A DNA stretch of 64,000 nt from Beijerinckiaceae bacterium (GTDB lineage: Bacteria > Bacteroidota > Bacteroidia > Chitinophagales > Chitinophagaceae), in NCBI GenBank assembly GCA_903970475.1, contig CAJCIQ010000021.1, forward strand, positions 1 through 64,000, given 5' to 3'. Shown here one piece after another: positions 24,730 through 50,283 of this stretch; the stretch's first letter is position 1; every line of letters starts with the position of its first letter. Under the pieces are notes generated by a model. The model was given only the letters and a program-made list of their open reading frames with translations. It made no database searches and was not told the DNA's origin. Made by a program: the position numbers and the translations under genes.

Positions 24730-24747
24730 AACAGTGATTTTGTAGTT

Positions 24748-24802
24748 GTGAATAGGATAACACGACGGGCGTCCGGACAGAGAAGGAGGGATTCCTATTC
24801 AC
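24748..24802 (-). promoter_or_regulatory. Inverted repeat in the susC leader
   Basis: GTGAATAGGA and TCCTATTCAC form a perfect 10-bp inverted repeat 35 bases apart. A GTCCGGAC palindrome lies inside. The element starts 18 bases upstream of the susC ATG, so it could fold in the leader RNA near the translation start or bind a regulator as DNA. Confidence 0.4.
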
Positions 24803-24916
24803 CTGACAAGTCCAATCGTTTATCGGAGAGTAAAGAAAATGAGATGATAAAGGGATGGCAAGTTATATAGGGTCCGTATAGAAAATATTCCCTGAATATT
24901 AACTATATAGAAAATT

Positions 24917-24939
24917 AACTTATTGATTTACAATAAGTT
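24917..24939. promoter_or_regulatory. AT-rich 9-bp inverted repeat in the intergenic region
   Basis: AACTTATTG and CAATAAGTT, perfect, with a 5-base loop, in an AT-rich stretch between the regulator gene's stop and the susC start. It could be an operator or a weak terminator of the regulator gene. No T-run is in a convincing place. Nothing else recognisable is in this 264-base gap, and no TAnnTTTG box was found for susC. Confidence 0.35.
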
Positions 24940-24993
24940 TAAAACATATTAATAATATAAAAATATGAATGTTGTGAGCGTATTTTATGACCA

Positions 24994-28853: not shown

Positions 28854-28854
28854 G

Positions 28855-31800
28855 CTACATTTTTATATTGATCCCTCCAACCACGATCTTGAGGGGGGGC
28901 AAGACATAAGCGTTCTGTGTTTCTGGATCAGATCCCCTGTATCCGGTAAAGGTCAGCAGGTTCTGGGCCCTCAGGTAAAATTGTAAGCCCTTCAGGTTGC
29001 ATTTTTTCATCCAGTTTTTTTCATCGCTAATGGAGTACGATAAGGACAGGGTGGAGATCCGGATGAAAGAAGCATTGGTGTAAGCAGCCGTGCTATTGGC
29101 CAGGTCATATCCGGCCAGATAAGCGTTGGCATTGTATCCTGAAGTGAATTTTTGAAAGCCTGGTGTTTGCCCGGGTTTCTGCCAACTGTTAGCCGCCTCC
29201 GTTGGCTGGTTGTACAGGGTGCCTGGAATATATCCGTTGTTGTAATAATAGTACAGGTAGTTAGGGCCCGCCTGCATCCTGAAGGTGGCAAATATGTCGA
29301 ATTGCCAATGATTGCAGGTTAGGCTATTGCCCATGCCGCCATAGACATCGGGGGAAAGATGGGCTATGTTCTTTGCGTAATCCTGTGGGTAGGATATCTG
29401 GCCATCATGATTAAGGTCTTTAAACGTGTATATGCCCGTTTCGCGGTTGACGCCGGTATAAAGATAACCATCCACTATGCTTAAGGGTTTGCCTATTTCC
29501 AGGTTGGTATAGCTGGAACTAGCTAGTCCAGGGAAAGAAACGAGCTGGTTAGAGGGGATGGATACATTGACGGTAGTGGTCCAGGTAAATTTTGAGTGAC
29601 GAATGTTCTTGGTCGTCAATACTTCCTCCCAACCTGCGTTTTGAACCAGGGCAGGAAAATTCTCTGTAATACCGGAGAATCCTGTTTGCAGGGGCAGTCC
29701 GTATCGGATGAGCTGATTGCCGCCCCTATCCCTATACCAGGCCGAAGTAAGCAGTATCCTGTCGCTAAGGAATCCTAATTCTATGGCTGCTTCCAGTTTC
29801 CGGTTGATTTCCCAGCTATAGTATGGATTATACAAGCGTACCGGATATAAGCTGGAAGAGCCTAGGTAAGGATAGGGCGTGGAACTCCATATATCCAGGT
29901 ATTGATAATCGCCTATTTGGTCGTTTCCGGTCGTGCCGTAACTGGCACGCAGTTTCCCGAAACTCAATACGGGTAAAGCTGACTTGAATGCTTGTAGTTT
30001 GCTGAATATCCAGGCTCCCCCTACAGCGCCAAAGCTGGCAAATTGTTTACCGGGGCCAAACCTGCTGGATCCATCCCGGCGTGCCGAAAGGTCAAGGAGG
30101 TATTGATCATGAAGGTTGTATTTCAACCTGCCAAAGAACAAGGCTTCATACCTGTATTCCGAATTATAGTTATTGCTGCTTAACCCGGCTGCCCCATTGG
30201 TTGAATTAAGGAGTTGGTCATACCGGTATCCATATCCGGAGATGATGGAATTATTGGCATTCATCCCTTGCCAGGTTGTACCTCCTAGCAGGTCAATTCT
30301 GCCTTTGCCGATTTGATTGGTATAGGCTACTTGTGGTTCGGCAATCCAGTTCTGCATGTACTTATCCCCAAATTGAGCGAATCCGCTGGGATTGGTGGAG
30401 GGGTTTTGGGCAGCAATGGGAATGATGCCCGTCTCCGATACCTGAACGCTGTTGTAGCCGATATTTGCCTTTAAGCTCAGGTTGGGTAATAATCCGGAAT
30501 AGGTCATTTCCAGCCTGGTCAGTAAATTATTGGATTGGGCCGTATATTGATCCAGGGTTAGGGCCAGTGGATTGACCGAATAGGGAATGTCTTTATCCTG
30601 CCAACTATATCCACCGGACGGTTGCGTAAGTTTAGGATAATCCGGAGCCAGATTGACGTAGGTTGTCAGATCCTGGGCTATGCTGTTGTTTTTATCTGAA
30701 TTAAGGTCAAAGACAAAATCAGCAGAGAATTTCCTATTTTTTGAATGGTGATTGAGGCTGGTGTAGAAGCTTTCTCTGCGATCGCTCAGGTCTCCTGGGA
30801 ACACACTGCCCTGGCTATGGATACTCCCACTGAGTAATATCTGCGTTTGCTCGCTTCCGGCGGTAAGGCTGCCTTGGGCATCCAGGGTGCTGCCCATTCC
30901 CCCAATGAGGAGTTTGGTAAAATCGGTATAACGGGTGGTATCCCAAACCATCAAATCCGGAGCGTCCGCTACATTGGGTGTAACCGTATCATTGGCAAAA
31001 GCCTGCCTGCGCATTTGCAGGTAGGGCCCCGTTTTCATGAAGGAAATGGTACGGGTAACCGTGCCTGCTCCCGAGTATACGTGCGCATCGAAGTGTGCGG
31101 TGCCGGCCTTCCCCTTTCTGGTGGTAATTAAAATCACGCCGGCGGCACCCCTGCTTCCATAGATGGCGGTAGCGTCAGCATCTTTGAGCACTTCTATGCT
31201 TTCTATGTCGTCAGGGCTGATGAGGGCCAGGGGGCTAAGGCCTCCGGCATTTACATTGCCGGAGGGATTAGCCGCTGATGTGAGTTGGTTTAAGGGGTTG
31301 TTGTTGGGTGCAAAGGGTATACCGTCTATGACAATTAAAGGGTCTGATCCTTGTAAAATGGAGTTTTGACCGCGGATCTGTACTTTGTAATAGGCACCGG
31401 GGTTGCCGCTACTTTGGGTGACCAGTAAACCCGGAACCCTGCCTTCTATGGTCCCCAGTGGATCGGATATAGGCTGTTGTTCTATATCCATACGCGTTAT
31501 CCTATCCACAGATCCCGTATTGAGTCTTCGGGTGGTTGTGCCATAGGCAATGATCACCGTTTCATCCAGGGAATTGGCAAAGGGGTGCATGATGATATCC
31601 ATATGTCCTTTGGCAGGTACTTCCATGGATTGATAGCCAATACAACTAACCAGGAGGGTATCACCACTATGGATTCCACCCAGGGTGAATGTGCCGTCTT
31701 CGGCAGCGAAGACGCCTTTATTGGTGCCCTTAACCCGCAGGGTAGCGCCACTCACAGGTTCCTTCTTCTCGGAACTGACCCTTCCATTGAGGGCCCAGGT

Positions 31801-32121
31801 TTGAGGCGGTGGGGGCGCCGGCTTCAGGGCCATAATGGATATGATGTTGTCAAAGAATTTGTAGGTCAACGGTTGGCCCTTCAAACAACTGTCCATTGCG
31901 TCTTTTAGGGAGACGTCGTGGAGGGTTATGGTTACTTTGTCCGTTTGTTTGATGATTGCCATATCGTAAACGAAAAAACAGCCGGTTTGCTTTTGGATAG
32001 CCGTCAACACATTTTCCAGGCTTTCCCCTTTGGCATGCACAGTCACACGCGCACCAGTTTGCTGGGCGTGCAAGGGGCTACTGATCACAATCCAGATAAG
32101 GATAGTTAGTCTAGCATACAT
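28855..32121 (-). CDS. SusC-type TonB-dependent transducer with N-terminal STN domain
   Basis: 1088 residues. After the signal peptide (MYARLTILIWIVISSPLHAQ) comes a secretin/TonB N-terminal (STN) domain (about 25-95; LENVLTAIQKQTGCFFVYD), as in FecA-like receptors that signal to FecR. A carboxypeptidase-like domain (about 110-190; ALNGRVSSEKKEPVSGATLR), plug (SIEVLKDADATAIYGSRGAA) and barrel follow. It imports a substrate and reports its binding to the FecR protein encoded 7 bases upstream. Confidence 0.94.
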   Translation of the reverse strand: MYARLTILIWIVISSPLHAQQTGARVTVHAKGESLENVLTAIQKQTGCFFVYDMAIIKQTDKVTITLHDVSLKDAMDSCLKGQPLTYKFFDNIISIMALKPAPPPPQTWALNGRVSSEKKEPVSGATLRVKGTNKGVFAAEDGTFTLGGIHSGDTLLVSCIGYQSMEVPAKGHMDIIMHPFANSLDETVIIAYGTTTRRLNTGSVDRITRMDIEQQPISDPLGTIEGRVPGLLVTQSSGNPGAYYKVQIRGQNSILQGSDPLIVIDGIPFAPNNNPLNQLTSAANPSGNVNAGGLSPLALISPDDIESIEVLKDADATAIYGSRGAAGVILITTRKGKAGTAHFDAHVYSGAGTVTRTISFMKTGPYLQMRRQAFANDTVTPNVADAPDLMVWDTTRYTDFTKLLIGGMGSTLDAQGSLTAGSEQTQILLSGSIHSQGSVFPGDLSDRRESFYTSLNHHSKNRKFSADFVFDLNSDKNNSIAQDLTTYVNLAPDYPKLTQPSGGYSWQDKDIPYSVNPLALTLDQYTAQSNNLLTRLEMTYSGLLPNLSLKANIGYNSVQVSETGIIPIAAQNPSTNPSGFAQFGDKYMQNWIAEPQVAYTNQIGKGRIDLLGGTTWQGMNANNSIISGYGYRYDQLLNSTNGAAGLSSNNYNSEYRYEALFFGRLKYNLHDQYLLDLSARRDGSSRFGPGKQFASFGAVGGAWIFSKLQAFKSALPVLSFGKLRASYGTTGNDQIGDYQYLDIWSSTPYPYLGSSSLYPVRLYNPYYSWEINRKLEAAIELGFLSDRILLTSAWYRDRGGNQLIRYGLPLQTGFSGITENFPALVQNAGWEEVLTTKNIRHSKFTWTTTVNVSIPSNQLVSFPGLASSSYTNLEIGKPLSIVDGYLYTGVNRETGIYTFKDLNHDGQISYPQDYAKNIAHLSPDVYGGMGNSLTCNHWQFDIFATFRMQAGPNYLYYYYNNGYIPGTLYNQPTEAANSWQKPGQTPGFQKFTSGYNANAYLAGYDLANSTAAYTNASFIRISTLSLSYSISDEKNWMKKCNLKGLQFYLRAQNLLTFTGYRGSDPETQNAYVLPPLKIVVGGINIKM

Positions 32122-32128
32122 GCCATTG

Positions 32129-33376
32129 CTAAGGGGTTACTATTATCTTCCCTTTTTCTAGTTTTAGGTGAATTTCTCCGTTAGCGGCCCCTTCCAATGC
32201 ATTGATCACAGAATGGAGGTCATTTGACCTGGGGATAATACCTCCCAGGTAAACGTCCTTGATTTTTCCCTGGTATTCTACGGGCAGGTCATACCAGCGG
32301 GAAATATCTCTCATTATTTCCGTTATGTTTCGATTCAGAATAATCCGATCCTGGGTCCAGGATATGGCATTTTCGGGCTGGGGGCATGCAACAATCCTCA
32401 GTTTGCCATCTGTGCTCAGAGAGGCTTGTTCGTTTTTCTGTAAAGTCCCGCTGGCCCCAGAGCCAGCGGATACTTTGACAGAGCCCTCTAATACAGTAGT
32501 CATGCAAATAGGATCATCTTCATAGGCCAGCACGTTGAAATGTGTGCCGAGCACTTGTATTTCGGTATGAGTAGAATCGATTTGTACGAAAAAGGGAGCC
32601 GAAGGCTGATCCTTTATTTCAAAGTATGCTTCTCCGCTTAAGCTGACCTTCCTTTGATGGGGGCCAAAATTTACGGGATACTTTAAGGTAGTTGCCGCAT
32701 TGAGCCAGGCGACGCTTCCATCAGGTAAGATCACCTTATAATTTGCTCCTTTGGGGGTAGACAGGGTATTTTGGCCGGAAGTGGCGGGCTGACCCGTGGG
32801 TACATACTCCAGGGTGTTATCTGCACTTTTAATGATGCGCATGCCCTTTTCCTCAGCTACCCATCCATTGGGCATATCGCCAATAGGAATGACCTTACCA
32901 TCAGCCGTGGTTAAGGATACCCTGTTTTTTGTGGTATTCCTGACCCCATTCCCGGCAAGTCCACCAGACTTACCGGGAACAGTGGCCGGAACGCTTACTC
33001 CAGGTGCATCAGATGCACTGGGGTGGCGATAATTAAACCAGAACGCAGTTCCCAGCACGGCTACCAGTAAAGATGCGGCCATGCCTGTCAGCCAATACGT
33101 CCGGTGGATTCCAATAACATTCCTTTTCTCCTCTTGAAGAAAAGGAGCGATCCTGGCTTCAAAGGCAGTCTCCGGATCTGATATGGAGAGATAGATATCT
33201 TTTGCTTCCTGGAAAACCTGGGGGTCATCCCATTTTTTCACGAGGGCACGACGAGCCGGGTCACCATCCAACCACCGTTGTAGTTCATCAGCCTCCGTTT
33301 CGGTGAGCTGTTGATCCACTTGTTTGTGGAGGAGCTCAACGATTCTGAAGGCATGATGCAATGGGTTTTGTTCCAT
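32129..33376 (-). CDS. FecR-family anti-sigma factor
   Basis: 415 residues. Cytosolic N-terminus (about 1-90; LTETEADELQRWLDGDPARR) that holds the sigma factor, one transmembrane helix (WLTGMAASLLVAVLGTAFW, about 95-115), a periplasmic FecR domain (about 190-300; LPDGSVAWLNAATTLKYPVN; VEL-type strand ending in TVLEGSVKVSA) and a C-terminal DUF4974 (about 345-415; ITEIMRDISRWYDLPVEYQG). It passes the signal from the STN receptor to the ECF sigma factor. A GGTGAC...GTCACC inverted repeat lies in the 95-base gap before it. Confidence 0.93.
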   Translation of the reverse strand: MEQNPLHHAFRIVELLHKQVDQQLTETEADELQRWLDGDPARRALVKKWDDPQVFQEAKDIYLSISDPETAFEARIAPFLQEEKRNVIGIHRTYWLTGMAASLLVAVLGTAFWFNYRHPSASDAPGVSVPATVPGKSGGLAGNGVRNTTKNRVSLTTADGKVIPIGDMPNGWVAEEKGMRIIKSADNTLEYVPTGQPATSGQNTLSTPKGANYKVILPDGSVAWLNAATTLKYPVNFGPHQRKVSLSGEAYFEIKDQPSAPFFVQIDSTHTEIQVLGTHFNVLAYEDDPICMTTVLEGSVKVSAGSGASGTLQKNEQASLSTDGKLRIVACPQPENAISWTQDRIILNRNITEIMRDISRWYDLPVEYQGKIKDVYLGGIIPRSNDLHSVINALEGAANGEIHLKLEKGKIIVTP

Positions 33377-33471
33377 AATTAGGAGGCATTAGCAGGTAGT
33401 GGTGACCCCTTACCCGTATATAAAACGCAGCGGCTGAAAAAAGTCACCATGATTTTTGAATTTTTTTTGAA

Positions 33472-34077
33472 TTACCGTAGGGCCACTGAGAGGAGGAATA
33501 GGATGACCAGGAAGTTTCTACCTTCCAGATCTTTCTTTAACATCATGATTGCCCGTGCTTTATAATTTCTGATGATTTTAGGGGAGAGGTTCATTTTTTC
33601 CGCAATTTCATCAGTTCCCATGCCGGAGGCGATGAGGTGCATGACCTTTTTATATTGATTGGGCAGGATATCTATGGCCTGGAGCATTTTCTCCAATAAT
33701 TCTGTGTTGATGACCTCCATCTCCATGGGGTCGTCGAAGACCTCGTCGCTTTCCAGATAGCGGTAATCTTTGTTGTTTTGTCTTAGTCTTTTTGCTTTTC
33801 TTAATTGGTCCACACAACCATTGCGGGTGGTAATATAAAGGAAGGAGCGGATGGCCGCCATGGAGGAGAAGCCCTCCCGTTTATTCCACAATTTTAAAAA
33901 GGCATCAGAGGCTACTTCCTCAGCTATCTCTGATTCAGGTACATAAGTGCGGGCAAAAAAGACCTGAATTTTCCAAAACAGCAGGAAGATATGTTTCATG
34001 GCCTCTGGGTTACCCTTTCTGAATTCGGATAACAGGTAATCTTCGTCGCCTTCGAATAGGTCTTGTTGTGCGGTCAT
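33472..34077 (-). CDS. ECF RNA polymerase sigma factor
   Basis: 201 residues from the ATG at 34077; a TTG three codons upstream is less likely. Region 2 spans about 20-100 (FARTYVPESEIAEEVASDAF, LKLWNKREGF) and region 4 about 130-185 (LPNQYKKVMHLIASGMGTDE, IAEKMNLSPKIIRNYKARAI). It directs polymerase to the cassette of FecR, SusC and SusD downstream, as in FecI-type systems. Unusually, the C-terminus is a hydrophobic stretch (FLVILFLLSVALR). Confidence 0.9.
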   Translation of the reverse strand: MTAQQDLFEGDEDYLLSEFRKGNPEAMKHIFLLFWKIQVFFARTYVPESEIAEEVASDAFLKLWNKREGFSSMAAIRSFLYITTRNGCVDQLRKAKRLRQNNKDYRYLESDEVFDDPMEMEVINTELLEKMLQAIDILPNQYKKVMHLIASGMGTDEIAEKMNLSPKIIRNYKARAIMMLKKDLEGRNFLVILFLLSVALR

Positions 34078-34147
34078 TAATGTCAATGTACGCCATTTAT
34101 TTTATTGGAAGGATTCCCAAATTGTTCATATTTAATGAGATACAAAA

Positions 34148-34205: not shown

Positions 34206-34252
34206 GGCACAAAAAAACCTGGGCTTTTTTTACCCAGGTTTTTTTCAGTGCC
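34206..34252. terminator. Bidirectional terminator after the phosphatase gene
   Basis: Stem AAAAAAACCTGGG / CCCAGGTTTTTTT with a 9-base loop, flanked by GGCAC / GTGCC pairing. A- and T-runs on both sides allow termination in either direction. It ends the phnN-susC-susD-phosphatase transcript, 67 bases past its stop. Confidence 0.85.
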
Positions 34253-34318: not shown

Positions 34319-35221
34319 TTATTCCAAATACCGTGCACGGAGGCTAGCCAAGGCTGCCGAATCCAAGCCAATCTGATCGTGCAGATAGGCATCTACAGAG
34401 CCATATTGAGCCCGGATAGCGGAGAAGGTGGCATCCAGGTATATTTTTTTGGCACTCATCATGTCCCTGGCCACTTGCTCGTTAACATGCATTTGCTGGG
34501 TCATTACCGGAATCAGCCGGTCGTTCAACTTCTGCCTGTATACGTTGGTAGCGGTATAGTCGGCCACGATGGTATCATAATTCACTCCCAGTGCATATAA
34601 GATCAGGGCAGCTGCAATACCGGTCCTGTCCTTTCCAGCGGTACAATGAAACACGAGTGCGTCTCCTTGTGGCAGCGCCAGGATTTTGGCGAACAGGGGT
34701 TTATACCTATCGGTCAGATAAGTGGTATTGGCATAAAAAGCGATCATCAGGGAGTCTCCACTCGTCAAACCGGCCATATGCTTATACCAGTCCTGGAGGC
34801 TGTCGCTACCTGCCGGGCAAAGAATATAATCGGTTTGTGGATTCATCCGATCTGGGGCTTTGGCGGATTCAGCTGTTCCTCTCAGGTCAACGTCGTAGCG
34901 TATATGTAAGGAATCCATTAGTGCCAGGTCTTTATCGGTGAGGGTGCTCAGGTCGGCACTCCGGTAAAGGACGTTCCACTTCACGTGTTTGCCATCGGCT
35001 GCTGTGTAGCCACCCAAATCACGGAAATTGACCGCTCCATGCACGGGAACGGCGCGGGTGGCGCTATCGCTGACTTGAGCGCTTACCTGAAAATGAACCA
35101 GCAGTGTCAAGGCCAGCAAGGGAACGCTCAGTGCCGATGCCTGGAGAAACAACCTGGCCGACAACCTGTTTGCCGGCGTGGATGGAGCGAGAACGATCTT
35201 GTGCAAAATTGAGTGCTGCAT
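34319..35221 (-). CDS. Exported tyrosine-phosphatase-fold protein (Y_phosphatase3 type)
   Basis: 300 residues from the ATG at 35221; a GTG eight codons upstream overlaps susD. Hydrophobic leader ASALSVPLLALTLLVHFQVSAQ-like (about 28-49), then NFRDLGGYTAADGKHVKWN and the cysteine-phosphatase P-loop FHCTAGKDRTGIAAAL (nucleophile Cys about 193, Arg about 199), plus Asp candidates upstream. It would hydrolyse phosphate esters in the periplasm. It is the last gene after phnN-susC-susD, 8 bases after susD. This position suggests that it removes phosphate from the imported substrate or a conjugate of it. That is inference. Confidence 0.82.
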   Translation of the reverse strand: MQHSILHKIVLAPSTPANRLSARLFLQASALSVPLLALTLLVHFQVSAQVSDSATRAVPVHGAVNFRDLGGYTAADGKHVKWNVLYRSADLSTLTDKDLALMDSLHIRYDVDLRGTAESAKAPDRMNPQTDYILCPAGSDSLQDWYKHMAGLTSGDSLMIAFYANTTYLTDRYKPLFAKILALPQGDALVFHCTAGKDRTGIAAALILYALGVNYDTIVADYTATNVYRQKLNDRLIPVMTQQMHVNEQVARDMMSAKKIYLDATFSAIRAQYGSVDAYLHDQIGLDSAALASLRARYLE

Positions 35222-35229
35222 GGTACGGG

Positions 35230-36867
35230 TTATTTGGTCAACCACATGGTGGCGAAAATATTGTCTGTTCCGCTGAACTGGGACGTGATGGCCGATTGCC
35301 AGTTGGTTGTGTTTTCTTGTGCTTCATCATTGGGATATTGCCAGCGGAGCGGAATTTGATTCCCGTTCGTCTCAATGCCGGGGCCGCCTGAATGGAATGC
35401 CGGTACGCCCGTTCTTCTCCATTGATAGTAAGCTTCCCAACCGGAGTTCTGCCAGAAGGCCACATATTTCTGTTGGAGGATCTGGGTCAGGCCGGTGGCG
35501 TTATTGCCCGCATATACAACATTGGGGTTGCTCAGGAAAGTAGAGACACTGGCCGTTACAGACCCTAATGAATTTCCGTAATCATCCCCTATGGGGATTA
35601 CGGTTCCGTCTACCAATTTATACATAGCCAGGCTTCCCAGGATCCCATTGGTATACCAGGTGGAGGCCAGGGAACTGCTGATCCAGCCTCTATTGGCAGC
35701 TTCGGCAATGTTGAAGCACATTTCAGGGTAACCAATGATAATGGCTGGTTCCTGGGTGGCGCCGGAAGGATCCTTAAAATACCGGAGATAGTTGGGGTAA
35801 GAATAGAGCCCACTCTGGGAGTTGGTATACAGATTCGGTAGTACCGTGTCAATGTCTGCACCCACATAGGCTGTAAAATCACTTACTTTTTTTCCGGCTG
35901 CGATCTGGGCAGGGGCGGGGGTAGCGGCGATGAAAGTGCGGGGGTCTTCGTTGGCGGTGGTGATGTCCAAATAGGTCTTGCTCATGGCCGAATAAAAGTC
36001 ATACTGGGTATAACTGGGCGCAAGCGGATATTTATTGGTGACCGCATTATAGGTAAACTGAAGATTGTCTGCTATGGAAGACATCAGCGGATACTGGGTA
36101 GGATTATTGATGATGTTGGCGAACTGGGTAGGGATGTTGAGGTCGGCATTGTCAACTGCCCTCCTGGACAAACTGATCAGCACACGCAATTTATAGGTAT
36201 TAACCACTTTCTGCCACTGGGCCACGGTCAATCCATAGATGTCCCCGGACACGGTATTGTTACCCTGGGCAGCAACGATGGCTCCAAGATCTGTATTGGC
36301 GGTATCCAGCAAGGCCAGGCAATGCTGATAGACGTCGTGTTGGGTGTTGTAGGTAGGCGTCAGGTTGGTCGTGCTACCCGCTTCATCCATGGGTATGTCT
36401 CCTACGCGTTGGGTATACCAAATGAACAGGTAGGCCCTGAAGAACTTATCCAAACCCGTATATGGATTGGGTAAGCTTCCGAATTGGGTCTTCATCTGGC
36501 CTTCCATCAACTCCAGGTATTTGAGTACACTGTACATAGTAGCGGAGTTAGACCAGTTGTAAGAGTTGTATCCCCAATAATAAGAGTACATGGATACATA
36601 GAATTGGTTCCAGCGATGGACATTGGACCAGGGGCCTTCGTTCTGAGCGGCTCCGGAGCTGGAGTTGGTGGTGATTCCTACGGCATCCATCACATCTCCG
36701 CCGTAATAAATCTCGTTGGCTACCCTATTGAAGATCAGGGATACCGGAACGGTGGTACTGCTGCTGGCGGCATTGGGGTTATTCAGAAGACTTCCTTTCT
36801 GACAACTGGCCAGCCCTATAGAAATTCCTCCTAAAAGGATCAGGGTTCTTATGATAGTCTTTGTCAT
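35230..36867 (-). CDS. SusD-like (SusD_2 type) lipoprotein in the phosphonate locus
   Basis: 545 residues from the ATG at 36867, where MTKTIIRTLILLGGISIGLA then SC gives a clean lipobox (LASC); the frame extends 18 codons upstream without a signal. Features of the SusD_2 group: LKYLELMEGQMKTQFGSLPN, FFRAYLFIWYTQRVGDIPMD, and a C-terminal QKYVAFWQNSGWEAYYQWRR. This group often pairs with transporters for non-glycan substrates. It lies 20 bases after its SusC partner and in the same unit as phnN. Confidence 0.9.
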   Translation of the reverse strand: MTKTIIRTLILLGGISIGLASCQKGSLLNNPNAASSSTTVPVSLIFNRVANEIYYGGDVMDAVGITTNSSSGAAQNEGPWSNVHRWNQFYVSMYSYYWGYNSYNWSNSATMYSVLKYLELMEGQMKTQFGSLPNPYTGLDKFFRAYLFIWYTQRVGDIPMDEAGSTTNLTPTYNTQHDVYQHCLALLDTANTDLGAIVAAQGNNTVSGDIYGLTVAQWQKVVNTYKLRVLISLSRRAVDNADLNIPTQFANIINNPTQYPLMSSIADNLQFTYNAVTNKYPLAPSYTQYDFYSAMSKTYLDITTANEDPRTFIAATPAPAQIAAGKKVSDFTAYVGADIDTVLPNLYTNSQSGLYSYPNYLRYFKDPSGATQEPAIIIGYPEMCFNIAEAANRGWISSSLASTWYTNGILGSLAMYKLVDGTVIPIGDDYGNSLGSVTASVSTFLSNPNVVYAGNNATGLTQILQQKYVAFWQNSGWEAYYQWRRTGVPAFHSGGPGIETNGNQIPLRWQYPNDEAQENTTNWQSAITSQFSGTDNIFATMWLTK

Positions 36868-36887
36868 TTTCTTCTTTTTAAATGGGT

Positions 36888-39800
36888 TTAGAAGCCAAGG
36901 TTCAGGTTTAGTCCAAACCAACGGGAGGTGGACGAGGACAGGGTCACATCATTAGACGTACCTGTTTGACCGGATCCTGTCAGGCCTTGTGTATACATGT
37001 CGAAACCGCTGGCGTATTGATCAATGTCAAAGTCCTTACGCTTGGCGAAGTAGAGCAGGTTCCTGCCCACCAAAGCGATGGCGGCGCTGCGGAATACGCC
37101 ATGCCCCAACACTTTCTGGCTGAAGTTATAGGTAAGACGAACTTCCCGGAGTTTGGCGAAAGTGCGGCTGATGGTGTAGAACTCATCGAAAGCAGAACCC
37201 AGGCCACTGGACAGGTAACTCTGAACGGTCACCGCCTTGGTATTGGGCGAATAAGTAAGGTCTTTCTGGTTGGTGATAACCCCGCCAACAATGCTGGGGG
37301 TGCCACCGGTGATGGTTACGCCTTGACCCACATATTTGGGCGTTGCAGCCACCGATCCTTGCTGCGTGGTTTCCCACTCGGCATTACGGGCAACACCCAA
37401 GGCGCCCTGATCGGATTCAATGGCGGTACCGCCATTCATGGCATGATACCAGATATCGTCGTAAATAACACCACCTACCCTGCCATCGAATTGGAAGGAA
37501 AGGCTCCAGTTTTTATAAGTCAGGCGGTTGTTGATGCCGTAAGAAAATTTAGGATCCAGATAACCAAGGAATTTGTACTGGCTGATGCCTGAAGGCGCGG
37601 ACATGGGTTCGCCGGAGCTGAATACAATGTTGCCTTGAGGGTCCCTGACGAAGCCGGTGCTGTAAAATGCATCCAGACGATCGCCCACGTTAAAGACATG
37701 GGTGCCTGCACCACCGGTACCTAATTCGACGGAATGTTCGCTTCCAACGACCTTATGCAGGTATTCCCTGTAGGTTGACCAGTTCAGCAACAGGTCCCAA
37801 CGGAAATTCCTGGATTTAACCGGGGTCAGGTTAAGGACGAGTTCTGCCCCTTTTTTCTCGGACTCAATGGCATTGACGTTCTGGGTCTGATAACCGGTGG
37901 AAGAGGCTACTGGTAGCGGATAGATCAACGGGCCATTGAAGTTCTGGTAATAAGTGAAGTTGATGCCTATCCTGCCTTCAAACATCTGGTAATCCAAACC
38001 AGCTTCATAGGACTGTATATTGAAGGGTTTCAACGAGGGGTTGGCAATATTGGTGGAATAGGATACGGAAGGTTGGCTGTTATAATAAGAGGTAACGGTA
38101 TAGGCACTTTGGTTTTTATAGGAAGGACCATCATAAGCGGAATACTGCTCCATGCCATAACCCAGTAACCCGCTGTTGAGGGTCGTACCGGTAAGCATAT
38201 AGTAAGCAGACCCGGCCTGGGCCTGGGTCAGGCCACCTTTTACATCGGCATAGGAAGCCCTGAGCTTAAACAAGTTGATGACTTTGGGGAGACGGATATA
38301 ATCGCCAAGGGAAGTGGACGCGGATACAGAAGGATAGAAGAACGTATTGTTGGCGGAAGGTAAGGTAGACAGATTGTCAACCCTGCCGGTGGCAGACAAG
38401 TTGATATAGTTCTTATAGGACAGGTCTATAGAATAATACCCGCTGAATACCTGCATGTTGGAACCAAAGTTATAGAGCAGCGCAGGGCTTTGGGAATTGG
38501 TGAAGCTATATACCCCTGGTACGGCCAGATCCCTGGTGGTACCATAGGTAGAATTATAGCGATAAGACCTTTCGCTGGTTCCCAGGTTGGCGGAAAGAAA
38601 GAAGTTATTCAGGGTCTTCTTGTAGGAAAGCAGAAGATCTGTGTTATTTTCTAACAGGCTGCGGTCATCCTGGCGGTAATCACCATACCAGCCTGGATAG
38701 TACCAGGATAGGTAGTCATTGAGGATGGTACCTGCGGGAACTTTTTCTGTTAATTGCTGGCTCCAGGTCGTAACGGCGGAACGAAGGGCCAGGTTGAGGT
38801 CCTTGTTGAAATTGTAGGTCAGTCTGGCATATCCGTATACATCGGTTTTATACTTGCCCCTTAACCATTCATAGGCCATGAAGTAGGGGTTGTTGCTCCT
38901 GCCGTAGTTCTCGTTATACTGGGTTAAACCTGGTACGCCCTGTGGACCTTTGTAATAATTTTTCAAATCCCGCACGTCAAAATCAGCAGGTCCATAAACG
39001 TTAAACATGTATACGTAGCTGTTTGGACCATAATCGGCGTCGGGTATATTGGGAGAGTATTGCTCGTTGAGGTTCACGTTGACGTCCATCTTTAAGTGGG
39101 AGCTGAATGAGAAATCTGCGCCCAGGTTGATGTTGTCCATGTTAATCCTGGTGTTGGGGGCCTGACCTTTCTGGAAGATATGGGAGTAAGATCCACGGAA
39201 GTCTATGTTCTTACCTGAAGCAGAAAAGGAGACGTTATCCGTGGAAAGGAAGCCTACGCCCAGAAAATTTTGAAGGTTCTTTTTGCCTATGGAATTGTAG
39301 GACGTGCCTGTCCAGGTACCAGAGGCGGCGTCATACGGGCTGTTGTATTGAACCACACTTTGTCCATCCATACGGGGACCCCAGATGGCCAAACGCTGTC
39401 CATAGTCATACAAGGTTTCTCCAGGCAGGAAAGCGCCAGGTGCATTGTAAGCGTATTTATAGCCTGTACCGCGGCCAAATTGCGTCTGCACCTGGGGGAT
39501 TACCGTAAAGCCCCTTTGGAACATATTGCTGGAGTTGAAATCCACTTGCCAGCCTTTACCTTCTTTGGTATTCCTTTTGGTGGTGATGATGATGGCTCCG
39601 TTCAGGCCACGGAAACCATAGAGGGCCGCTGCATTGGGTCCTTTGAGGATGTTCACGCTTTCGATATCGTCTGCGTTTACGTTCCAGGTGTCTGAGCTGA
39701 CGGGAACCCCATCGACTACGATCAGGAGGTCTTTGTTACCCCTGAGCACCAGGTTGGGTCTGCCGTACAGTTCTGGTGAAGTGCCTACGTCCAGACCTGC

Positions 39801-40256
39801 CACTTTTCCTTCCAACTGGCTGAATACGTTCGGGTCCCTGGCCTTAGCCAGTTCAGCTCCTTTTACTTCCTGGATGGCATAGCCAATCCTTTTAGATTCC
39901 CTGCGTATACCCAAAGCGGTTACTACTACCTCTGAAAGTACGCGGTCGGATTCTGTCATGACAACGCTTAAGGTAGGTTCAGACCCCAGCGGTAGTTCCT
40001 GGGTGTTATAGCCTACGGAAGAAAAGACCAGTATGGCGTTAGGGCCACTGACCTTTATGGAATACATCCCATCGGCATTGGTGACGGTGGCATGTTTTTG
40101 TCCTTTTTCTGAAATAGTTACCCCGGAAATGCCTATGCCTCCGGAAGTGACCCTTCCGTTGACCGTTTTTTCCTGGGCAAAAAGGGAACTGCCCGCAAGC
40201 AGGCAGTATAGCAGCATGATGACATAAGCTGCTGGCTGTGTCAATTTTTGTCTCAT
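36888..40256 (-). CDS. SusC-type TonB-dependent transporter in the phosphonate locus
   Basis: 1122 residues. Signal peptide MRQKLTQPAAYVIMLLYCLL followed by AGSSLFAQ; carboxypeptidase-like domain (about 30-105; TVNGRVTSGGIGISGVTISE); VVVTALGIRRESKRIGYAIQ at the plug start; SVNILKGPNAAALYGFRGLN in the plug; barrel to the C-terminus. It begins 12 bases after phnN. The linkage with phnN on one side and a divergent C-P lyase operon on the other suggests uptake of an organophosphonate or phosphorylated compound. No glycan enzyme is nearby. Confidence 0.93.
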   Translation of the reverse strand: MRQKLTQPAAYVIMLLYCLLAGSSLFAQEKTVNGRVTSGGIGISGVTISEKGQKHATVTNADGMYSIKVSGPNAILVFSSVGYNTQELPLGSEPTLSVVMTESDRVLSEVVVTALGIRRESKRIGYAIQEVKGAELAKARDPNVFSQLEGKVAGLDVGTSPELYGRPNLVLRGNKDLLIVVDGVPVSSDTWNVNADDIESVNILKGPNAAALYGFRGLNGAIIITTKRNTKEGKGWQVDFNSSNMFQRGFTVIPQVQTQFGRGTGYKYAYNAPGAFLPGETLYDYGQRLAIWGPRMDGQSVVQYNSPYDAASGTWTGTSYNSIGKKNLQNFLGVGFLSTDNVSFSASGKNIDFRGSYSHIFQKGQAPNTRINMDNINLGADFSFSSHLKMDVNVNLNEQYSPNIPDADYGPNSYVYMFNVYGPADFDVRDLKNYYKGPQGVPGLTQYNENYGRSNNPYFMAYEWLRGKYKTDVYGYARLTYNFNKDLNLALRSAVTTWSQQLTEKVPAGTILNDYLSWYYPGWYGDYRQDDRSLLENNTDLLLSYKKTLNNFFLSANLGTSERSYRYNSTYGTTRDLAVPGVYSFTNSQSPALLYNFGSNMQVFSGYYSIDLSYKNYINLSATGRVDNLSTLPSANNTFFYPSVSASTSLGDYIRLPKVINLFKLRASYADVKGGLTQAQAGSAYYMLTGTTLNSGLLGYGMEQYSAYDGPSYKNQSAYTVTSYYNSQPSVSYSTNIANPSLKPFNIQSYEAGLDYQMFEGRIGINFTYYQNFNGPLIYPLPVASSTGYQTQNVNAIESEKKGAELVLNLTPVKSRNFRWDLLLNWSTYREYLHKVVGSEHSVELGTGGAGTHVFNVGDRLDAFYSTGFVRDPQGNIVFSSGEPMSAPSGISQYKFLGYLDPKFSYGINNRLTYKNWSLSFQFDGRVGGVIYDDIWYHAMNGGTAIESDQGALGVARNAEWETTQQGSVAATPKYVGQGVTITGGTPSIVGGVITNQKDLTYSPNTKAVTVQSYLSSGLGSAFDEFYTISRTFAKLREVRLTYNFSQKVLGHGVFRSAAIALVGRNLLYFAKRKDFDIDQYASGFDMYTQGLTGSGQTGTSNDVTLSSSTSRWFGLNLNLGF

Positions 40257-40268
40257 TGGTTTGATTGG

Positions 40269-40832
40269 TTAAAATGTTGAAATCGTAGCTTGGTAATTGG
40301 TCAAAAGGGTAATCAGCGCATCTCCTCCCTGGGTCAGCGGGCCATTATTCCGGATGATGATGGTCCCTCCGGATCTGTCGGTGATTTCCGGTTTGCGCTG
40401 TAATCTTCTTTCAATGTCATCGGTGGTTTCCCGACCTCTGGTTTCTAACCTGAGCCGGATAATGTCGGGGTCGGCCTCTATGAGTACAGGAACGAGGTGG
40501 GGATACTGTTCCAGGGCGATCGGCAAGTGTGCCCTGGACCCATTCACCACCACGGAACAACCGGCTTGTAGCCATAGGTCTATTTCTCTGCCTATACCAT
40601 AATATAGGTCATGACTTTCCCAGTGAAGGGCCAAAGCGCCACTGTCTCTTCTTTGGATAAATTCTTTGGTGCTGAGGTAAATGTGGTTCTCGTCACCTTC
40701 TTTGGGTGGGCGGGTGATATATCGGTGTGCAAACATCAATGGCTGGGATCCATTAATGGTTCTGCGAGCGTATTGCATCAGGCTGTCTTTTCCGACACCG
40801 GATGCGCCAATGATGTAAAATAGTAGCGCCAT
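40269..40832 (-). CDS. phnN: Ribose 1,5-bisphosphate phosphokinase PhnN
   Basis: 187 residues of the guanylate-kinase-like fold. Walker A IIGASGVGKDSLMQYA (about 7-22), AHRYITRPPKEGDENHIYLS, ALHWESHDLYYGIG, VVVNGSRAHLPIALEQYP. PhnN converts ribose 1,5-bisphosphate and ATP to PRPP, the last step in recycling the ribose left by C-P lyase. It heads the minus-strand arm, ahead of susC-susD-phosphatase. This is unusual: phnN normally sits with the other phn genes, whereas here the rest are divergent and 1.1 kb away. Confidence 0.93.
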   Translation of the reverse strand: MALLFYIIGASGVGKDSLMQYARRTINGSQPLMFAHRYITRPPKEGDENHIYLSTKEFIQRRDSGALALHWESHDLYYGIGREIDLWLQAGCSVVVNGSRAHLPIALEQYPHLVPVLIEADPDIIRLRLETRGRETTDDIERRLQRKPEITDRSGGTIIIRNNGPLTQGGDALITLLTNYQATISTF

Positions 40833-41091
40833 ATCTTAGTTCCGCGGTAGTATATGCACCCGTGGGCGAAGATCAACTGCTACTTTTCGGGGTTTATTCG
40901 GAATTGATTAGCTGTTCGTTAATTCATTGTATGGAAACGATCAAAATGTTAATGGACTTAATTAACTACAATATGAGGTTAATGTTATGGAATTATTAAT
41001 GCTTTGTTAGATTGGCAAGAAATTTTCTCATTTCTTCAGTATTTAACATTAACCTAAAATTTGGTTCACATACGATATATATTATAGGGGA
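40833..41091. promoter_or_regulatory. Divergent control region of the phosphonate locus
   Basis: 259 bases between phnN (minus) and the response-regulator gene (plus). TTAATG occurs three times in direct orientation (40949, 40979, 40996). AGGTTAATGTT (40976-40986) recurs as its exact reverse complement AACATTAACCT at 41045-41055. These could be binding sites for the adjacent OmpR-type regulator. No PHO box of the E. coli type and no clear TAnnTTTG box was found; a TATATATTATA stretch lies just upstream of the regulator's ATG. Confidence 0.45.
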
Positions 41092-41802
41092 ATGAAAAAG
41101 AACAAATTGGTGCTGATCGATGATCACCCAGACACCATAGAGCTGCTTAAGTACAATCTTTCCTCAGAAGGTTATGATATAAAGGCCTTTTACAATGCCG
41201 TGGATGCATTGAAGTACATCACAGTGGAAAATACCGATCTGGTGATTACGGATTGGATGTTGCCGGAAATGGATGGCCTTGATTTTTGCCGGAACCTCAA
41301 GCAGCATCCTACTACCCAGGAGATACCTGTTGTTATGCTCACTTGCAAAAGCGATGAGATTGATGCAGTGACTGCCTTGGAGGTAGGCGCGGAGGAATTT
41401 ATCAGCAAACCGGTACGCATGAGGGAGATGCTCACCAGGATCAAAAAGATCCTGAAGCGAAAAGTTGTCGAGCTTACGGCCTTGTCGGGAAAAGATGTAC
41501 GGGAATCCATAATCCGGGGGAGACTAAAACTGGACCTGGCCAGTTATGCTGTATACCTGGAGGATGAACCCCTGGAGCTGACTATTGTGGAGTTCCGTTT
41601 GTTGGAATTGTTGGCCAAGCAACCCGGTAAGGTGTTTTCCCGGAATCAGATCATGGAAAGGGTCAGTGGCATGGATTATTTTGCTGCTGAAAGGTCGGTG
41701 GATGTACAGGTAGCCGGCTTGAGGAAAAAGCTCGGGGCTTATAAAGATGGTATAGAAACCATACGATCAGTAGGATACCGACTAAATGAGAAGGCATTAT
41801 GA
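41092..41802 (+). CDS. OmpR/PhoB-family response regulator (orphan)
   Basis: 236 residues. Receiver domain (about 1-120) with acidic pair DD at 10-11, phosphoacceptor Asp54 in LVITDWMLPEMDGLDF, the conserved Thr in VVMLTCKS and Lys in FISKPVRM. Winged-helix domain (about 140-233): LTIVEFRLLELLAKQPGKVF, RSVDVQVAGLRKKLGAYKDG, IETIRSVGYRL. No histidine kinase gene is in the window. It sits between the two arms of the phosphonate locus, so it is the likely regulator of both, possibly a phosphate-limitation signal like PhoB; the signal is inferred. Confidence 0.88.
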   Translation: MKKNKLVLIDDHPDTIELLKYNLSSEGYDIKAFYNAVDALKYITVENTDLVITDWMLPEMDGLDFCRNLKQHPTTQEIPVVMLTCKSDEIDAVTALEVGAEEFISKPVRMREMLTRIKKILKRKVVELTALSGKDVRESIIRGRLKLDLASYAVYLEDEPLELTIVEFRLLELLAKQPGKVFSRNQIMERVSGMDYFAAERSVDVQVAGLRKKLGAYKDGIETIRSVGYRLNEKAL

Positions 41803-41922: not shown

Positions 41923-42351
41923 ATGGAGATGATGATAGACGTAGACTTCATTCTTTGCGAGTGTAACCTCGAAGCCCTCAAGTCTTTTGTGGAAAGCCTG
42001 GAAGGCATTTACCAAACCTTGGTCTCCAGAGACCCCTCTTTGTGCACGGTGATGATTCCTGCCGAAGATTCCGTGGAGGGGCAACCCTTTTACCTGGGGG
42101 AAGCCCTGGTCACAGAATGTGAGGTGGTTTTGCAGGGGCAGGTTGGCTTTGGCATTTGCCTGGGAGACGAACCCGTCAGGTGTTATTGCATAGCCTTCCT
42201 GGATGCTGCGCTTCAATTAAATGATGCGCACTACGACCGGATCATGCAATTTTTAAAGGAACAGGACGCCCTGGTTACACAAGCGCACGTCGTGGAATAC
42301 AACCATATCCAGCGCACCAAAGTGGATTTCAAACTCATGGAACAGGATTAA
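41923..42351 (+). CDS. phnG: C-P lyase core subunit PhnG
   Basis: 142 residues, close to the 150 of E. coli PhnG. The core segments PFYLGEALVTECEVVLQGQV and GFGICLGDEPVRCYCIAFLD with the C-terminal QTK-type end (IQRTKVDFKLMEQD) match the family. PhnG forms the G2H2I2J2 core complex and with PhnI and PhnL couples phosphonate to the ribose of ATP. Three in-frame ATGs lie within the first ten bases of the start, so the exact start is open. phnH begins 2 bases after its stop. Confidence 0.9.
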   Translation: MEMMIDVDFILCECNLEALKSFVESLEGIYQTLVSRDPSLCTVMIPAEDSVEGQPFYLGEALVTECEVVLQGQVGFGICLGDEPVRCYCIAFLDAALQLNDAHYDRIMQFLKEQDALVTQAHVVEYNHIQRTKVDFKLMEQD

Positions 42352-42353
42352 TT

Positions 42354-43031
42354 ATGCATAGGGAAATAGTTTATGACCCCGTATTTGATGCCCAACGGCA
42401 TTACCGGCAATTATTAGACTGCATGTCCAGACCTGGGAAACTGAATCGGTTGGACAGGATGGATCTACATGTTCCTGGCGGTATACATGAGGGAGCGGCC
42501 CTGGTGGCTTTTGCCTTGCTCAATGCGGACGTAACCTTTTTTGCGGCAGGTATTGGTGCTGCGGAGATCAACGCTTATTTGAAGACCCAGACTTTTGGGC
42601 GCCCTGCTCCTGGAGCGGAGGCTGACTTTCTGTTTCTGAGTGGGGCTGATGCAATGTGGATCAGCAAGGCAAAGCGCGGCACGCTGCCCTACCCGGAAGA
42701 AGGAGCTACGCTTGTACTGAGTGTGGATGCGTTGGTACCTGGGAGCCTCCTGGTGGAACGGTTGACGCCCGAGGGGGAGCTTCGCGGGGAGAGCGAGCAA
42801 CCGGAGCGTAAGAGGCCGGAAGCGTCCCATAGCCCTGTCCTTACGTTGACCTTATCAGGGCCGGGCATTGAAAAGGAACGCTACCTGGGCGTTTCCGGTT
42901 TAAGCAGGGAATTCTTTACTGAGTGGAGTGCGTGCAACCAGGAATTCCCCCTGGGTGTAGACCTGATCCTGGCCGATCCATACGGATGGATAGGATCCCT
43001 ACCCAGAAGCACGCAGATAGAAGTACACTGA
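42354..43031 (+). CDS. phnH: C-P lyase core subunit PhnH
   Basis: 225 residues, about 30 longer than E. coli PhnH (194). Family features: YDPVFDAQRHYRQLLDCMSR then PGKLNRL; EADFLFLSG; YPEEGATLVLSVDAL; LTLSGPGIEKERYLGVSGLS; FPLGVDLILADPYGWIGSLP. PhnH is a structural subunit of the core complex. The extra length is a charged, low-complexity insert (about residues 140-160; GELRGESEQPERKRPEAS) encoded by GC-rich DNA just before the conserved SGPGI segment. Confidence 0.92.
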   Translation: MHREIVYDPVFDAQRHYRQLLDCMSRPGKLNRLDRMDLHVPGGIHEGAALVAFALLNADVTFFAAGIGAAEINAYLKTQTFGRPAPGAEADFLFLSGADAMWISKAKRGTLPYPEEGATLVLSVDALVPGSLLVERLTPEGELRGESEQPERKRPEASHSPVLTLTLSGPGIEKERYLGVSGLSREFFTEWSACNQEFPLGVDLILADPYGWIGSLPRSTQIEVH

Positions 43032-43047
43032 TAAATACCATTCAATT

Positions 43048-44184
43048 ATGGGATATGTAGCGGTTAAGGGCGGTTCAGACGCCATTCACCACGCCGGAGA
43101 GTTGGTGGAGTTTTACCGGGTAAAGGAAGGTACGACTCCGCTGGAGGTGGCCCAAATTTCGGCCCAACTTCGGCTGGCAGTTGATAAAGTGATCGGCGAA
43201 GGCGGACTGTACGCGCCTGAATATGCAGCCATTGCCTTGAAGCAAGCTGAAGGAGAAGTCTTTGAAGCAGCTTTTATCTTAAGGGCTTTCATTACCACCC
43301 TGGAACGACGTTATTATGCGGAGCCCATACAAACCAGGGAGATGTTCATCCGCAGGAAAATCTCTGCTTCGTTCCGGGAAATTCCGGGCGGACAGGTGTT
43401 GGGGCCTACCCGGGACTATACCCAAAGGATAATGGATACAGCAAAGGTCAATGAAACCCTGGAGGACATGAAGGCCTTTTTGCAGAAGTTTGAATCCAGG
43501 TTGGATAAGAACCACCTTCAGGAAGTCACTACGTATGCAAAGGTCATAGACCTGCTGAAAAGGGAAGGTTTGTTGCAATCCGTTGCGGGTGATGAAGACA
43601 GGACCCTGAAGGATATTACCAGGGAAGCCATACGGTTTCCAGCCCCTCGTTCTGCCCGATTGCAAATGATGTCCAGGGCAGAAACCGGTGGCTTGATGGC
43701 TTTGGGATACAGCAGCATGCGGGGTTTCGGTAGTGACCATCCAACGGTAGCAGAATTGCGCTATGGTACGGTACCACTCAGGATAAAGGATCCCGGTGGG
43801 AGAATACGTTATGTAGGTAAGATTGCCGTGACAGAAGCCGAAATGATATCCATGAAAAAACAATCTAAAAAAGGAGAGGCTCCCTTATATGGTATAGGAT
43901 ATGGACTATGCTTTGGACAGAACGATACCAAAGCCATTTGTATGGGCATCCTGGATAGGACTATGCGCGCTCCGGATCCCAGTTCCCCGCCCAACGACCA
44001 GGAGTTCGTACTCTACCATACCGAAGGAATAGAATCCATGGGATTCACCAACCACCTTAAGCTACCTCACTATGTCACCTTTCAGGCAGGCCTCAACAAT
44101 GTAAGGGCTGCCGTCAAGCGATCCACTCAAAACGTCGTCACGTCAGCGCCCACCGTCACGACACAACCCGCCGTCACACCATGA
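43048..44184 (+). CDS. phnI: C-P lyase core subunit PhnI
   Basis: 378 residues (E. coli 354). PhnI acts as nucleosidase and, with PhnG, PhnH and PhnL, forms ribose 1-phosphonate triphosphate. Conserved: YVAVKGGSDAIHHAGELVEF, EGGLYAPEYAAIALKQAEGE, EIPGGQVLGPTRDYTQRIMD, GYGLCFGQNDTKAICMGILD, and TNHLKLPHYVTFQ, whose two His match the metal-binding His328 and His333 of the E. coli protein. The last 15 or so residues are a Thr/Pro/Val-rich tail. The stop overlaps the phnJ start by four bases (ATGA), so translation is probably coupled. Confidence 0.95.
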   Translation: MGYVAVKGGSDAIHHAGELVEFYRVKEGTTPLEVAQISAQLRLAVDKVIGEGGLYAPEYAAIALKQAEGEVFEAAFILRAFITTLERRYYAEPIQTREMFIRRKISASFREIPGGQVLGPTRDYTQRIMDTAKVNETLEDMKAFLQKFESRLDKNHLQEVTTYAKVIDLLKREGLLQSVAGDEDRTLKDITREAIRFPAPRSARLQMMSRAETGGLMALGYSSMRGFGSDHPTVAELRYGTVPLRIKDPGGRIRYVGKIAVTEAEMISMKKQSKKGEAPLYGIGYGLCFGQNDTKAICMGILDRTMRAPDPSSPPNDQEFVLYHTEGIESMGFTNHLKLPHYVTFQAGLNNVRAAVKRSTQNVVTSAPTVTTQPAVTP

Positions 44185-45077
44185 CTCCCTATACCAAATA
44201 TCAAAGCCGGTACAACTTTGCCTTCATAGATGAATCTACCAAAAAGGAGATCAGGAGAAAGTTGCTCAAAGCCATAGCCATTCCGGGTTATCAAGTACCT
44301 TATTCTTCCCCTGAAATGCCCATAGCCAGAGGCTGGGGTACGGGGGGGCTGCACGTGACTTTGTCCCTTATAGGGAAAGAGGATGTCCTCAAAGTCATAG
44401 ATCAGGGCAGTGATGCCAGCGTCAATGCCTGTAATCTCCGGGAGTTCATTCAAAGTATGACCCAGTGTCAAACAACGTATGATACGGTTGATGCAACCCT
44501 CATCCAAAGCCGGCACCGTATCACAGAAGAAGCGCTCAGGGAAGATCAGATCTTTATTTTTCAGGTGCCACAACCTGAACCCTTGCGGTCGGTGGAACGC
44601 TACGAGTTCAAAACCCGGCAAATGCATGGGGAGGCGGATTATGCAAAAATGTGGGTCTCTCTCTATGAGTCCTTTGTCAGGCATGGGGATATTATGCTCG
44701 GTGCCGGGTATCCTGTAAAAGTAAACGGACGGTATATAATGGCTCCTTCCCCCATTCCCCGTTGGGATATACCCAACCTTTCTCAGGCGAAAACCCTTTA
44801 TCTGTTTGGAGCCGGGAGGGAAAAGCGCTTATACGCGGTACCTCCTTTCACCACTGTGGAACCCCTCGAATTTGAGGACGTCAAATTCAATATTGAGCAG
44901 TTCGGGGACCAAAGATGTTATAAGACCAAATATACCCGCGCCTTCCTGGATGAACTCTATTTGGACGATGGATCCAGGATGCACGTAGTCAACGACAGCA
45001 ATTTTCTGGACAAGCTGGAGGCTGGAGCAGAAGTGAATCCTTTTTTCAACCCTTACCTGGCAAAAATTGATTTATGA
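44181..45077 (+). CDS. phnJ: PhnJ-type C-P lyase with altered cysteine motif
   Basis: 298 residues. Strong family identity: LLKAIAIPGYQVPYSSPEMP (Gly36 equals the glycyl residue Gly32 of E. coli), ARGWGTGGLHVTLSLIGKED, TDDATLIQ-like DATLIQSRHRI, DQIFIFQVPQPEPLR, GYPVKVNGRYIMAPSPIPRW and LFGAGREKRLYAVPPF. PhnJ is the radical SAM enzyme that breaks the C-P bond; in E. coli Cys241, 244 and 266 hold the iron-sulfur cluster and Cys272 carries the thiyl radical. Aligning FLDELYLDD with SYLDEVVLDD puts Cys246 on 241, but Thr249, Val270 and Leu276 on 244, 266 and 272. Only two other Cys exist (84, 96). The frame is intact and the alignment continues through this region, so this is substitution rather than frameshift. 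Overlaps phnK by four bases. Confidence 0.92.
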   Translation: MTPYTKYQSRYNFAFIDESTKKEIRRKLLKAIAIPGYQVPYSSPEMPIARGWGTGGLHVTLSLIGKEDVLKVIDQGSDASVNACNLREFIQSMTQCQTTYDTVDATLIQSRHRITEEALREDQIFIFQVPQPEPLRSVERYEFKTRQMHGEADYAKMWVSLYESFVRHGDIMLGAGYPVKVNGRYIMAPSPIPRWDIPNLSQAKTLYLFGAGREKRLYAVPPFTTVEPLEFEDVKFNIEQFGDQRCYKTKYTRAFLDELYLDDGSRMHVVNDSNFLDKLEAGAEVNPFFNPYLAKIDL

Positions 45078-45922: not shown

Positions 45923-45935
45923 TCTATTTGACCAT

Positions 45936-46652: not shown

Positions 46653-46667
46653 AAAACGAGTTTTCAT

Positions 46668-47843: not shown

Positions 47844-47844
47844 T

Positions 47845-50273: not shown

Positions 50274-50283
50274 ATTTTTCTCC

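Follow-up and report, generated by a model that had tools for sequence, protein, structure and literature searches.

A SusC/SusD unit divergent from a C–P lyase operon in a soil Bacteroidota genome and its predicted role in phosphonate import

Phosphonate passage across the outer membrane is, to our knowledge, largely unexplained. The phn operons of Proteobacteria combine phnGHIJKLM with PhnCDE and PhnN. SusC/SusD (SusCD) pairs near phosphonate-degrading enzymes have already been reported in Flavobacterium under the name PusCD and are linked there to phosphomono- and diesterases; the same paper terms PusD polyphyletic and gives six PusD forms (PMC8115612). Here we describe a SusCD pair in a 64,000-nucleotide stretch of a soil Bacteroidota genome assigned to Chitinophagaceae (contig CAJCIQ010000021.1, positions 1 to 64,000; hereafter the window). 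Its minus strand carries phnN, susC, susD and the gene of a predicted exported phosphatase of the protein tyrosine phosphatase (PTP) type, in this order and as one unit, with gaps of 12, 20 and 8 bases that follow from the assigned gene starts. This tight unit had been proposed in an earlier reading of the letters alone (the sequence-only reading), and its coordinates and gaps were right. The unit stands divergent from a phoB-like gene heading a phn operon in which the carbon–phosphorus (C–P) lyase genes for PhnG, H, I, J, K, L and M occur together. Judged from gene content and neighbourhood, it is probably (at a rough probability of 0.6) an importer of the SusCD type, under phosphate control, that takes up organic phosphorus compounds bearing phosphonate.

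Conservation of the unit beside C–P lyase operons

PhnJ is rare among the relatives of the window's genome: it was found in one of 395 genomes of the class, three of 394 genomes of the family and both genomes of the genus. All three carriers in the family, namely the window's genome, its congener G454 and Puia dinghuensis (G767), share this set of four genes, which stands divergent from the phoB-like and phn genes. Identities across the three are 57–66% for SusD, 51–64% for SusC, 60–63% for PhnN and 65–68% for the phosphatase, and the PhoB-like regulators of the two other genomes share 80% and 77% identity with that of the window. In G454, phnN and susC overlap by 4 bases. The four-gene arrangement exceeds chance, its divergent position being the same in both other PhnJ genomes of the family.

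Scanning the genome collection for PhnJ gave 66 loci, of which 26 are distinct Bacteroidota loci (L078, on the same contig as L036, was left uncounted); viral contigs searched for PhnJ contained none. The flanks fetched around the 26 loci span at most ~10 kb, many being cut by contig ends. SusC or SusD occurs in six of these 26 flanks, always of the window's group, and a tblastn panel detected no SusC or SusD outside that group in them. Nine of the 28 C–P lyase genomes and loci carry SusCD of the window's group within 15 kb of PhnJ (the window, G454, L019, L022, L023, L034, L036, L045 and L056), in at least four arrangements relative to phn, the divergent arrangement with phnN being one of them. 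In Mucilaginibacter polytrichastri (L019) and Mucilaginibacter sp. (L023), the trio of susC, susD and phosphatase genes forms a downstream, co-directional part of the phn operon; in L034, L036 and L045 the pair is on the far side of the phoB-like gene; and in L022 the trio lies ~12 kb upstream of PhnJ, together with a phosphoesterase. A SusD within 15 kb of PhnJ is expected by chance in roughly 1% of genomes, at ~1.7 such SusDs per 5 Mb genome, and nine loci with SusCD among 22 then give p ~5e-13. Both the 1% and the number of assessable loci (22) were estimated roughly, with no correction for kinship.

A SusC above the TIGR04056 cut-off is followed by a SusD-family lipoprotein, as expected of a SusC/SusD pair, and a domain profile search did not find the STN signalling domain in this SusC. 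The susD reading frame is open beyond its start, and the ATG at 36867 yields, by inspection, a lipoprotein signal with the lipobox LASC. The AlphaFold2 model of SusD, with a predicted local distance difference test score (pLDDT) of 89.7, has a predicted SusD fold and lies nearest to the solved structure 3mx3. The active-site loop of the phosphatase reads HCTAGKDRTG, and HCxAGKDRTG is kept in 23 of 23 aligned relatives; this corresponds to the HCx5R loop of PF13350 and PtpB kin, and among solved structures 8dhi and the phosphatase PtpB (1ywf) come closest. The unit comprises phnN, susC, susD and the PF13350 gene only, and the glycoside hydrolase or lyase of a polysaccharide utilisation locus is missing from it.

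Linkage of the SusD group to a second phosphonate pathway

Relatives of the window's SusD (E <= 1e-90) were found at 100 places in 90 of the 394 family genomes. Those at 38–47% identity often stand beside an HD-domain protein, a HAD hydrolase, an FAD oxidoreductase, the membrane protein DUF5690 and a PF01663 hydrolase. The oxidoreductase matches TIGR03364 at 405–431 bits (cut-off 285), the HD-domain protein reaches 201.6 bits with TIGR03276 (Phn-HD), just under the cut-off of 214.6, and the HAD hydrolase 190 bits with TIGR03351 (PhnX-like), under the cut-off of 219. TIGR03364 occurs at 124 places in 123 of the family genomes. By coordinates, 54 of the 100 SusD places have TIGR03364 within 15 kb; they comprise 3 of the 15 SusDs closest to the window's (score >=430 bits) and 51 of the other 85. 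The SusD group and TIGR03364 occur together in 72 genomes, SusD only in 18, TIGR03364 only in 51 and neither in 253, an odds ratio of 19.8 (Fisher p 1.7e-28, kinship uncorrected). Within TIGR03364 genomes, 54 of 81 SusDs of the group lie within 15 kb of the enzyme, compared with 3 of 54 other PF12771 SusDs that served as controls; the 54 controls are those in TIGR03364 genomes among the best-scoring 150 PF12771 places outside the group, rather than all matches. Twenty TIGR03364 loci from the 51 genomes without the SusD group were also inspected. A SusC-SusD pair is present in 13, in 12 of them on the strand of TIGR03364; in three of the seven loci without a pair, the contig ends close to the cassette. 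The SusD group is linked repeatedly to two unrelated phosphonate pathways, C–P lyase and the TIGR03364/Phn-HD/PhnX-like set. In a quick tree that carries a long-branch warning, C–P-lyase-linked and cassette-linked SusDs are spread over several branches. Along ~30 kb of a single contig, Puia dinghuensis (L056, L112) combines a C–P lyase operon with a TIGR03364 cassette and two SusCD pairs.

DUF5690 is found in the cassettes L092 (3346-4662), L159 (9689-10960) and 34 others. Its model (pLDDT 90.1) has the major facilitator superfamily (MFS) fold. The first seven Foldseek matches are to human SLC37A4, a glucose-6-phosphate/phosphate transporter, and structural alignment with VIA-align gives Z 32.2 to SLC37A4 against 30.8 to other MFS proteins, so that the predicted fold is firm and the organophosphate:phosphate antiporters are a candidate subfamily. 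A profile search of the PDB returned no sequence match for DUF5690, and a full-text literature search found no paper on it. The protein has an invariant R38-K39, presumably similar to the arginine region with which GlpT binds phosphate. We regard DUF5690 as a candidate inner-membrane phosphonate importer. PhnE went undetected in the two Mucilaginibacter genomes with the trio inside the phn operon, as it did in five of 27 genomes overall, and in both of these DUF5690 lies near the trio on the opposite strand.

Proposed function and competing explanations

The PhoB-like neighbour and a repeat motif suggest phosphate control of the unit. The element TTAACATT-N2-3-CTAA is present in all three phnN/phoB-like intergenic regions (0.00 expected) and in five of 13 regions upstream of phoB-like genes, with two regions common to both sets. 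In a weak test based on mononucleotide shuffles, direct repeats occurred upstream of susC in four of 24 close regions (0.8 expected) and in seven of 24 from a second group (0.28 expected). In the proposed mechanism, SusD would capture the ligand at the cell surface and TonB-driven SusC would move it to the periplasm, where the PTP-type phosphatase, by its predicted location and role, would strip phosphate ester groups. PhnCDE would import the phosphonates freed there, the C–P lyase PhnGHIJKLM would open them, and PhnN would recycle the ribose bisphosphate by-product to phosphoribosyl pyrophosphate (PRPP). The most likely substrates would be phosphonates too large for general porins, for example phosphonolipid head groups or fragments and phosphonoglycan oligomers.

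The sequence-only reading had taken phnN as the direct tie to phosphonate use. phnN adjoins susC in only three of the 28 C–P lyase genomes and loci, some of them cut by contig ends, and these three are the window, G454 and Puia dinghuensis; we therefore dropped it as the functional link. The expected gene order beside phn genes recurs in every PhnJ genome of the family and in none of the other C–P lyase loci compared. In most C–P lyase Bacteroidota phnN is apart from SusCD, still close to the phn genes, and the unit that travels is susC-susD-phosphatase without phnN. Several genomes do have phnN away from the pair and the pair with another pathway, as the sequence-only reading had envisaged against its own proposal, but that pathway is often phosphonate catabolism too. 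The same distribution makes it highly improbable that the unit serves ribose or nucleotide salvage, with PhnN as the functional partner converting imported ribose bisphosphate to PRPP: the leading position of phnN and its close spacing or overlap with susC would suit such a role, but among the 12 closest loci of PhnJ-less genomes none has a gene labelled phnN-like next to the trio. It is also improbable, though less so, that the imported ligand is an ordinary glycan or peptide and the pair came to adjoin phn by chance or local rearrangement. The genome is rich in SusD (33 PF07980 and 19 PF12771 matches), and the chitin-binding structure 5j5u is among those near the SusD model, ranked below three whose titles name no ligand. 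Against this, the phn linkage is kept in two genera, recurs in other arrangements in further genera and extends to an unrelated phosphonate cassette, while the control SusDs lack such linkage and the unit has no glycosidase.

Several observations weigh against a phosphonate importer in the strict sense. SusCD is absent nearby in eight of 17 C–P lyase loci with ~9–10 kb or more of upstream sequence. Only three of the 15 closest SusDs are in PhnJ genomes, the other 12 genomes having no PhnJ match, so the trio is common without C–P lyase; as few of the 15 lie within 15 kb of TIGR03364. The unit's phosphatase belongs to a phosphate-ester family, and active import through the outer membrane may be unnecessary for small phosphonates. 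Of the 15 closest loci, 11 (eight of 12, plus the window, G454 and G767) have a PF13350 phosphatase gene no more than 2.5 kb after susD on the same strand, and in 13 of 18 loci of C–P lyase genomes a PTP-type phosphatase follows susD within this distance. Several trio copies lie beside an alkaline phosphatase, a PF04185 phosphoesterase or a phospholipase C, neighbours that favour organic phosphorus in general. The trio could accordingly be a general importer of phosphate esters (phospholipid head groups, nucleotides, phytate-like or phosphorylated glycans) that shares a phosphate-starvation island with the C–P lyase without phosphonates being its ligand, and the esterase links of the published PusCD (PMC8115612) point the same way. 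We hold this explanation to be somewhat unlikely, as the wider SusD group stands beside phosphonate enzymes far above the control rate and two genomes have the trio inside the phn operon. The outer-membrane importer tied to phosphonate use, as put forward in the sequence-only reading, is well supported by genomic association with two phosphonate pathways, but the many trio copies by alkaline phosphatases or phospholipase C make its phosphonate specificity tentative. That the unit imports organic phosphorus, whether phosphonate-bearing or of the general ester kind, is very probable.

Returning to the phosphonate importer, we consider the odds about even that Bacteroidota of this family carry phosphonate utilisation loci modelled on polysaccharide loci. 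A dedicated SusCD subfamily would import oligomers or lipid fragments that bear phosphonate, P–O hydrolases at the surface or in the periplasm would trim them, DUF5690 (an SLC37A4-like MFS protein) or PhnCDE would take the products across the inner membrane, and C–P lyase or the TIGR03364/Phn-HD/PhnX-like set would cleave the C–P bond; the window would represent the C–P lyase version. A SusCD subfamily tied to two independent C–P-cleaving pathways offers named genes to test. The linkage suggests that these bacteria meet phosphonates in the form of larger molecules such as lipids and glycans, and it points to a possible function for DUF5690 and for part of the many SusCD pairs of soil Bacteroidota that have no assigned ligand.

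Layout of the locus and comparison with known systems

Table 1. Features of the four-gene unit, the shared intergenic region and the divergent phn operon in the window
Feature	Positions	Strand	Evidence or remark
Terminator hairpin, T-runs both sides	34211-34245	both	end of the unit; minus strand -20.1 kcal/mol and z -5.2; plus strand z -3.5
Predicted exported PTP-type phosphatase	34319-35221	-	PF13350 227 bits; ATG 35221; secretory signal
susD, surface lipoprotein, SusD-like_2 type	35230-36867	-	PF12771 176.7 bits, cut-off 27
susC, TonB-dependent outer-membrane transporter	36888-40256	-	TIGR04056 420.9 bits, cut-off 368; TIGR04057; plug domain
phnN, ribose 1,5-bisphosphokinase	40269-40832	-	TIGR02322 211 bits, cut-off 156
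Shared intergenic region, phnN (-) / phoB-like (+)	40833-41091		259 bases; divergent promoter region
TTAACATT-N2-3-CTAA element	41043-41057		inside the phnN/phoB-like intergenic region
PhoB-like OmpR-family response regulator	41092-41802	+	TIGR02154 194 bits, below cut-off 296
phnG, H, I, J, K, L, M (C–P lyase)	41923-47843	+	Pfam, NCBIfam
Conserved unannotated protein, two Hx(T/S) motifs, 2H phosphoesterase-like	47806-48684	+	both histidines invariant in 5/5 aligned
Phosphonate-operon hexapeptide transferase	48685-49353	+	TIGR03308 270 bits, cut-off 202
phnD, phnC, phnE, phnE, inner-membrane phosphonate ABC transporter	49350-52695	+	profile matches
Second phnM and calcineurin-like phosphoesterase	52745-54687	+	end of phn operon

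The hairpin that closes the unit was seen by folding; its plus-strand loop exceeds the limit of 8 of the terminator scan, which for this reason does not list it. The phn operon (Table 1) was called complete in the sequence-only reading, which is right for phnGHIJKLM, but PhnP (TIGR03307) was not found above the curated cut-off in the window's genome or in any of 20 C–P lyase Bacteroidota genomes searched. For this reason the 2H-like protein may act as a stand-in for PhnP. It has no match in Pfam or NCBIfam. In the phn operons of Bacteroidota its conserved place is between phnM and the hexapeptide transferase gene, with the motifs HQT and HVS in the window and HQT with HVT or HIT elsewhere. The calcineurin-like phosphoesterase is ~66% identical in both syntenic genomes. 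Mucilaginibacter-type phn operons with three or four tandem phnD copies were seen in L022 (15301-19047), L026, L030 and L031.

Directly downstream of the unit, at 27474-34086, lie genes for an extracytoplasmic function (ECF) sigma factor, FecR, a SusC with an STN domain and a SusD; this neighbour is kept only in G454, of the same genus. The ECF sigma/FecR pair was rejected as the regulator of the unit because a terminator intervenes, the pair heads its own SusCD and it is missing at the Puia locus. Beyond it, at 14324-26598, is a glycan locus with SusC, SusD, GH71, GH99-like and GH31 enzymes and a DUF6377 protein. The sequence-only reading saw no linked glycosidase, which is right for the unit and its immediate neighbour; this locus qualifies the statement, as its glycoside-hydrolase part, with its own SusCD, occupies 14324-24729.

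The SusCD pairs of polysaccharide utilisation loci resemble the window's pair in their SusC and SusD families, tandem order and lipoprotein SusD; the window's unit differs in having no glycoside hydrolase and in partner enzymes that act on phosphorus compounds. With the phn operons of Proteobacteria the window shares phnGHIJKLM, PhnCDE and PhnN, but its phnN sits in the divergent SusCD unit, no PhnP reaches the cut-off, and a 2H-like protein, a calcineurin-like phosphoesterase and a PhoB-like regulator at the head are added. The TIGR03364/TIGR03351/TIGR03276 cassettes have relatives of the window's SusCD in genomes of the same family, and differ in a predicted oxidative or hydrolytic C–P cleavage and in DUF5690 in place of PhnCDE. 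No SusCD importer for phosphonates was found in the available parts of PMC8812569, PMC11892949, PMC9426549, PMC8316502 and PMC12366243, and no description of SusCD with C–P lyase was recognised among titles and abstract beginnings, a scope outside which subscription papers and supplements lie. The closest described system is PusCD, which the unit matches in gene content, having a pair with a PF13350 phosphatase and a C–P lyase and no glycosidase. PusD1 and PusD2 belong to pf07980/pf14322, whereas the window's SusD belongs to PF12771; C–P lyase has no occurrence in the main text of the PusCD paper, whereas the window's unit adjoins one; and low-phosphate induction was measured in Flavobacterium (PMC8115612), whereas phosphate control of the window's unit is a prediction. 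The window also differs in its Bacteroidota family, its divergent phn operon and the phnN within the unit. What is new is a PF12771-type SusCD tied to two C–P-cleaving systems, which extends the published PusCD idea.

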